Source: Candidatus Saccharimonadota bacterium (GTDB lineage: Bacteria > Patescibacteriota > Saccharimonadia > Saccharimonadales > Saccharimonadaceae). Taken from it: a stretch of DNA of 41,910 nt. Below are positions 13,573 through 34,188 of the stretch, one piece after another. Each line of letters opens with the position of its first letter. Position 1 is the stretch's first letter. The position numbers and the translations under genes are program-made. The DNA is taken from assembly GCA_017434345.1 (NCBI GenBank), contig JAFRFM010000035.1:1-41910 (forward strand). The letters are read 5' to 3'. The notes beneath the pieces are model-generated. The model searched no databases and was not told where the DNA came from. It saw nothing but the letters and a program-made list of their open reading frames with translations.

Positions 13573-13649
13573 CGCGGGGTAGAGCAGCCTGGTAGCTCGT
13601 TTGGCTCATAACCAAAAGGTCGTTAGTTCAAATCTAACCCCCGCCACCA
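13573..13649 (+). tRNA. Initiator tRNA-fMet (CAT)
   Basis: A 77-nt cloverleaf with encoded CCA (13647-13649). Initiator hallmarks are the unpaired C1 x C72 at the top of the acceptor stem and the A11:T24 pair in the D stem. The anticodon loop is CTCATAA. The anticodon stem is TTTGG/CCAAA, so only two of the three conserved G:C pairs (30:40, 31:39) are present; 29:41 is T:A. The terminator stem begins inside its 3' end. Confidence 0.95.
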
Positions 13650-13698
13650 GGGTGGAGACATAATGACCCCCCATTGTGTCTCCACCCTGGTGTTTTTT
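13645..13698 (+). terminator. Terminator overlapping the tRNA-fMet 3' end
   Basis: A 21-bp stem (13645-13665 with 13672-13692, one G-U wobble) with a 6-base loop, followed by six Ts (13693-13698). Its 5' arm starts with CACCA, which is nucleotides 72-76 of the tRNA, so hairpin formation competes with exposure of the CCA end and RNase cleavage is needed to free it. Confidence 0.9.
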
Positions 13699-22204: not shown

Positions 22205-22216
22205 TCTGGTACCAGA

Positions 22217-22338
22217 GAGATAAAACTAATAGTCTATGTCGGGCTGTGAGGCGTAGCACGCCTCACAAGCCAGAATATCACCCCTGTAAAGACAGGGGTG
22301 ATATATCTGGCGCCGACATAGGCTATTAGTTTTATCTC
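22217..22338 (+). ncRNA. Structured 3WJ element, copy 1 (122 nt)
   Basis: Three helices can be drawn. P1 is 26 bp with one G-U (22217-22242/22313-22338). P2 is 9 bp with loop TAGCA (22245-22253/22259-22267). P3 is 19 bp with one bulge and loop AAAG (22269-22287/22292-22311), ending in CCTGTAAAGACAGG. There is no ORF and no U-tract. It lies between convergent stop codons (22204 and 22347). The second copy at 34028-34149 has the same length and fold. Strand and transcription are inferred from the neighbouring upstream gene. Confidence 0.65.
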
Positions 22339-34027: not shown

Positions 34028-34149
34028 GACAAGCAAAGAAGAAGTCTTTTCGTAAGCGTGTGCGCCGAAGCTCGGCGCACAGCAAGCGAGCCCTGTAAAG
34101 ACAGGCGCTCGCGCAGCGGGCTTACGAAAGGACTTCTTCTTTGCTTGTC
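34028..34149 (+). ncRNA. Structured 3WJ element, copy 2 (122 nt)
   Basis: P1 is a 30-bp stem with one G-U (34028-34057/34120-34149). P2 is GTGCGCCGA/TCGGCGCAC (34060-34068/34072-34080). P3 (34086-34096/34101-34112, one bulged C) ends in the same CCTGTAAAGACAGG as copy 1. It begins 26 bases after rplS and ends 11 bases before the RNase J -35 box. It has no U-tract, so it is not a standard terminator. Strand is inferred. Confidence 0.65.
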
Positions 34150-34159
34150 GAGGCTGGGG

Positions 34160-34188
34160 TTGCAAAAAAATGTAATCTTTGCTATAAT
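34160..34188 (+). promoter_or_regulatory. RNase J promoter
   Basis: TTGCAA (34160-34165), 17-base spacer, TATAAT (34183-34188) with TTTGC before it. The leader is about 80 nt and begins with an AGTATCAA (34192-34199)/TTGATACT (34237-34244) stem right at the predicted start. Confidence 0.7.

Follow-up and report, generated by a model that had tools for sequence, protein, structure and literature searches.

What do two 122-nt palindromes with mostly unrelated stems and one shared hairpin tip represent? Both lie in the window, by which we mean the whole 41,910-nt stretch of Saccharibacteria DNA analysed, and both fold into a three-way junction of an outer stem (P1) and two hairpins (P2 and P3). 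The earlier note had read the preserved pairing as selection on RNA structure and had argued against a mobile element.

Element 1 is flanked by a DUF975 gene and, convergent with it, an acetate kinase gene; element 2 lies between rplS (encoding L19) and an RNase J-like gene that are co-directional. The predicted fold of element 1 had an energy of −88.7 kcal/mol, compared with a shuffle mean of −29.1 (z −16.0), and that of element 2 had −87.9 kcal/mol, compared with −40.0 (z −13.7); in both cases, 0 of 200 shuffles were as stable. The length of 122 nt for each element, the P1 stems of 26 and 30 bp with one G-U pair apiece, and the position 12 and 26 nt past a + strand stop codon (TAA in both cases), all described in the earlier note, were confirmed. 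The same is true of the tip hairpin CCTGT-AAAG-ACAGG common to both elements, for which 0 of 100 shuffles gave an equal number of matches. The palindrome of element 1 extends over 22212–22242 on its 5' side, with 90% complementarity. The absence of a U-tract also held, and a test for intrinsic terminators (a G+C stem plus a T tract) yielded no terminator-like site in either element. Other parts of the description needed correction. The P2 loops do contain AGC, but folding gave stems of 10 rather than 9 bp. Each P3 does have a bulge, but the two bulges are non-homologous, the A of element 1 following 13 bp and the C of element 2 following 5 bp. The proposal that every base pair differs while pairing is kept was upheld as covariation in larger alignments; the two-copy comparison on which it had been based mixes two sub-types.

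Table 1. Coordinates of the two palindromic elements and of the adjacent promoter-like sequence in the window.
Feature	Positions	Strand	Basis or remark
Element 1, core type A, whole three-way-junction palindrome	22217..22338	+	sequence, folding, covariance-model match
Element 1 P1 5' arm, 26 bp	22217..22242	+	folding
Element 1 P2 hairpin, 10 bp, AGC loop	22245..22267	+	folding
Element 1 P3 hairpin, A bulge at 22305	22269..22311	+	folding
Element 1 conserved tip GTAAAGAC	22286..22293	+	pattern scan
Element 1 P1 3' arm	22313..22338	+	folding
Element 2, core type B, whole three-way-junction palindrome	34028..34149	+	sequence, folding, covariance-model match
Element 2 P1 5' arm, 30 bp, 97% complementary	34028..34057	+	folding
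Element 2 P2 hairpin, 10 bp, AGC loop	34059..34081	+	folding
Element 2 P3 hairpin, C bulge at 34106	34082..34117	+	folding
Element 2 conserved tip GTAAAGAC	34095..34102	+	pattern scan
Element 2 P1 3' arm	34120..34149	+	folding
Promoter-like TTGCAA-17-TATAAT, extended -10	34160..34188	+	directly after element 2

The two elements belong to a dispersed family. With up to two mismatches allowed, the tip pattern CCTGTAAAGACAGG occurred 38 times in the 527-kb assembly, compared with four occurrences of the reversed control, and the folded sites had the same P1-P2-P3 arrangement, with constant polarity in nearly all of them. The family architecture comprises a P2 plus P3 core of 60–70 nt with the tip GTRNMGAC, heading a near-perfect P1 palindrome of mostly 20–45 bp. 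Core type A measures 69–70 nt (element 1) and includes a coding variant; type B, that of element 2, measures 61 nt. Type A and type B copies served to build covariance models (R2 being the type B model), with 38 R1 and 51 R2 matches in the window's genome, which overlap and correspond to about 50 distinct places. Both-sided changes were present in 24 of 37 and 22 of 36 pairs in the two model alignments, a level reached by 0 of 500 shuffles, and shifting the partner by one column reduced pairing from 94–96% to approximately 36–47%. Across copies, the conserved part was the core with its tip, and the long P1 was locus-specific. Because most of the genomes were assembled from metagenomes, and several contigs break off inside elements, all copy numbers are lower bounds. 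The family had no match in an Rfam covariance-model search, in agreement with the earlier view that no named RNA family has this layout. The argument against a mobile element was not supported, given about 50 dispersed copies in this genome and, elsewhere, copies located mostly in frame within genes.

The distribution of the family was assessed by scanning 393 genomes of the class for a 22-base core pattern. The pattern was present in 64 of about 104 genomes of the same genus and in two genomes from other genera of the family; it was detected in none of the remaining sampled genomes of the class, and its reversed version in none at all. The R2 model had matches in 35 of 40 same-genus genomes, with 0 to 51 per genome; thus, the search of related genomes with covariance models that had been proposed earlier found further structured relatives. 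Of the 80 loci listed for named records with the tip pattern, about 75 were from Candidatus Saccharibacteria, mainly from the ruminant gut, and a long P1 was present at 117 of 124 tip-pattern sites from such records. In the few other records (e.g., Polaromonas and Actinomadura), the folds were weaker and laid out differently, and these matches are probably due to chance. None of the viral contigs searched contained the tip pattern, which speaks against carriage by viruses. Our literature search, which covered few subscription papers and no bioRxiv preprints, returned no palindromic or structured element for Saccharibacteria, Patescibacteria or CPR. The family of approximately 120-base palindromes is apparently undescribed and is restricted almost wholly to one genus of ultra-small Saccharibacteria.

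Placement of the copies differed between genomes. In the window's genome, 24 of 29 scored copies were outside any clear gene, whereas in other genomes 122 of 144 sampled copies, most of them gathered with one exact pattern, were inside genes (an open frame of >150 codons with >20 codons on each side of the element), in frame and stop-free, and the genes were mostly housekeeping ones. Going by names read from sequence, the genic copies of the window's genome were in AlaRS, PheRS beta (twice), aminopeptidase N and a methyltransferase, and those of its relatives in ValRS, IleRS, LepA, TsaD, TruB and others. Orthologues lacking the element had a short loop at the site, and those carrying it were about 31–42 residues longer. 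The genic tip was read in five frames and in both orientations, the sixth frame containing a stop, which indicates that selection acts on the nucleotides and not on a peptide. At two sites, in tsaD (L044/L046) and in the methyltransferase gene (L008/L043), the element pointed one way in one species and the other way in another; an inversion through recombination of the two P1 arms, or more than one insertion event, would give this arrangement. At the valS site of locus L089, a core-less orthologue retained GGGCTCTAgaaTAGAGCCC, a short and perfectly palindromic sequence that a lost element may have left behind.

Taken together, we favour, with a probability of roughly 0.7, an explanation in which the elements are dispersed, non-autonomous DNA palindromes belonging to a single Saccharibacteria genus, resembling the Rickettsia palindromic elements (RPE), with arms that arise during or after insertion. 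Both copies in the window would then be intergenic insertions, and any effect on termination or insulation would be incidental. Host function is not required to account for the data. Several observations count against this explanation, including the failure to find a mobilising enzyme or to define a target-site duplication, the comparison of empty and full sites, and the locus pair L229/L235, all described below. In addition, the share of genic copies elsewhere (122 of 144, most gathered with one exact pattern) exceeds what neutral insertion followed by loss of frame-breaking copies would suggest, and a promoter-like box downstream of scored intergenic type B copies could point to function. 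Eight scored type B copies of the window's genome had a TGNTATAAT-like box on the tip strand, 12–42 nt past the 3' arm, including the one adjacent to element 2; one of the eight, L031, was typed by reading its core, the script label having gone by core length. No box was found at the mirror position. The association of type B with the box may reflect insertion preference or function.

Function at the DNA level is the strongest competitor, although we regard it as unlikely. According to this explanation, the elements are sites, in cruciform or single-strand hairpin form, to which a host protein binds, for example in replication, nucleoid organisation, competence uptake or promoter control, and are under selection as DNA. 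The extended -10 box (eight scored copies, none at the mirror) would be accounted for, as would the conservation of the tip irrespective of reading frame and the persistence of elements at the same site across many species (e.g., in valS and tsaD). Such a site should hardly vary from 0 to about 50 copies among congeners, however, and the frequent empty sites and the unrelated nature of the genes hit also weigh against it.

A structured non-coding or cis-regulatory RNA, that is, a transcribed three-way junction serving ligand binding, processing or the formation of transcript ends, is less probable still. Strong covariation, very stable folds, a conserved tip, fixed polarity and the location of the window's copies after stop codons are all what such an RNA would show. 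The kind of imperfect pair offers a distinction. Selection on RNA predicts a large excess of G-U over A-C among departures from Watson-Crick pairing. We counted departures on the tip strand in P1 and P2, on which the test rests, as the fixed bulges of P3 bias the count. Across 173 elements, P1 contained 225 G-T and 219 A-C departures (p-value 0.81), and the parity held whether the tip strand was sense, antisense or non-coding; P2 contained 11 and 10, respectively. We conclude from this parity that P1 is kept palindromic as DNA, and the covariation, strong as it is, does not carry the meaning of selection on RNA structure that had been given to it. The RNA explanation is further weakened by the location of most copies elsewhere within open reading frames in either orientation, by the absent U-tract and by the absent Rfam match.

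The origin of the arms was examined by comparing copies within and between genomes. For 12 pairs of copies in the window's genome with cores at least 95% identical, the identity of the outer arms averaged 0.36, whereas an arm matched its own partner at a median of 85%, measured over a constant length of 20 nt, which may extend past the end of the palindrome. Similarly, three intergenic copies in genome G018 had near-identical cores and unrelated arms. Arms are therefore not inherited from the parent copy. At orthologous sites of different species, 146 Watson-Crick changes were both-sided and 59 one-sided (38 non-independent pairs). Locus-specific arms together with concerted change at orthologous sites fit arms that are made locally and then kept matched. 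An exception was genome G013, in which dispersed copies had about 240 bp in common, arms included; thus, the whole palindrome can be copied too. The same genome contained a second palindromic family, with arms GGAGCTTTGTACCTAGTTTTGGTTGGC, nested in the remains of a first-family element (L269 and L272), and several of its contig ends were located in nested palindromic repeats. In one pair of loci (L229/L235), the element was far more alike than its flanks (85% identical), which suggests constraint or recent transfer. Tandem partial repeats of one element half and arm, resembling products of slippage or template switching, were observed in L013 (near 762) and L037 (near 1506).

Three other accounts of the arms were considered, none of which gained support. 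Inverted copying of the target was unsupported, since in the closest pairs of empty and full sites (flanks 88–92% identical) the insertion appears to include most of both arms; the empty-site alignments did not fix the insertion boundaries, and no target-site duplication could be defined from them. Borrowing from elsewhere was not supported by the arms of 173 elements, which mostly matched the same or orthologous sites in a comparison covering a small part of each genome. As for pre-existing palindromes serving as targets, the 42-kb window holds only one strong core-less hairpin, at 13645–13692. This hairpin (21 bp, 95% complementary, 6-nt loop, no family core) begins at the 3' terminus of a tRNA gene (13573–13646). 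Finally, template switching that made imperfect hairpins longer and more perfect with no mobile core, as proposed for nematomorph mitochondrial genes (PMC6649704), would explain the perfect locus-specific arms, the core-less palindrome remnant at the empty valS site of L089 and the half-element duplications in L013 and L037, but for dozens of unrelated loci to share one core, one tip and one polarity, dispersal from a common source is needed, and this already disfavoured idea is very improbable.

For the favoured explanation of RPE-like insertion, we propose the following course of events. The core would be the part that spreads, recognised by a putative enzyme as an extruded hairpin, a cruciform or folded single-stranded DNA. 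The P1 arms would be built at or after insertion and would be kept matched by replication template switching or by arm-to-arm conversion. Within genes, the surviving copies would be those that are in frame, stop-free and situated in tolerant loops, where they would be translated as disordered linkers. Long palindromes would be tolerated because the palindrome nuclease SbcCD appears to be absent. SbcD belongs to this nuclease, by which long palindromes are destroyed, and a profile search for it yielded 0 of 40 Saccharibacteria above the cut-off, compared with 8 of 14 controls, the absence being one by profile only. A Y1 HUH transposase (PF01797) was detected in one of 40 same-genus genomes and not in the window's own genome; this near absence speaks against an enzyme of the RAYT/IS200 type as the mover. 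No mobilising enzyme or autonomous copy was found. More specifically, and only as a tentative suggestion that we rate below even odds, the two-hairpin core may make a fresh locus-specific stem at each site, with conversion keeping it matched, so that the terminal inverted repeats are made and not carried.

The family resembles several known systems in part. MITEs are characterised by terminal inverted repeats that are conserved and, usually, by target duplications. Like them, the elements described here are small, non-autonomous, multicopy, palindromic and sometimes genic, but their outer stem is the least conserved part, except in the G013 sub-family with shared arms. Integron attC sites act as folded single strands in which structure is conserved over sequence, with conserved boxes at the base of the stem. 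Structure outlasts sequence here as well, but it is the tip that holds the conserved boxes, and the regions read showed no cassette arrays. REP and BIME sequences are short palindromes, dispersed in bacterial genomes, whose signature and polarity are conserved. REPs are described as bearing a terminal GTAG or CGTC tag (PMC3733652), and their name marks them as extragenic. The present family differs from the REP/RAYT system in having the signature in a loop, a third stem and almost no Y1 transposase.

The closest parallels are found in two other systems. RPEs, selfish palindromes of about 100–150 bp, occur in a reduced genome both in frame within unrelated housekeeping genes and between genes, and their families encode a conserved peptide (PMC10969869); they are described as losing repeat identity over time (PMC6649704). 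In-frame insertion into unrelated protein genes of a reduced genome is shared with the family described here. Unlike RPEs, this family has no conserved peptide or frame, and every locus has a P1 of its own, which remains matched; its head is a two-hairpin core with the tip GTRNMGAC, a distinction drawn from descriptions of RPEs only. The coding palindromes of Nematomorpha mitochondria are long inverted repeats in genes, species-specific and with matched arms, for which template switching or conversion has been proposed (PMC6649704). The arms of the present family are likewise matched within coding sequence and different between species. However, nematomorph arms encode native conserved protein, with no common core described, whereas here a shared core has been inserted and multiplied. 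The family is thus like RPEs in placement and like the nematomorph palindromes in its arms, and fits neither definition fully.

These elements add a second, independent bacterial lineage, besides Rickettsia, with large-scale in-frame entry of palindromes into essential genes. They also separate base-pair covariation from RNA selection, combining covariation of textbook strength with zero strand bias, which calls for caution in covariance-based RNA discovery. They offer natural material for studying how long palindromes originate and are maintained in cells seemingly without SbcCD, and how aminoacyl-tRNA synthetases tolerate 30–40 additional residues. If our suggestion is true, spread carried by a core, with the stem built anew at each site, would be a new logic of transposition.
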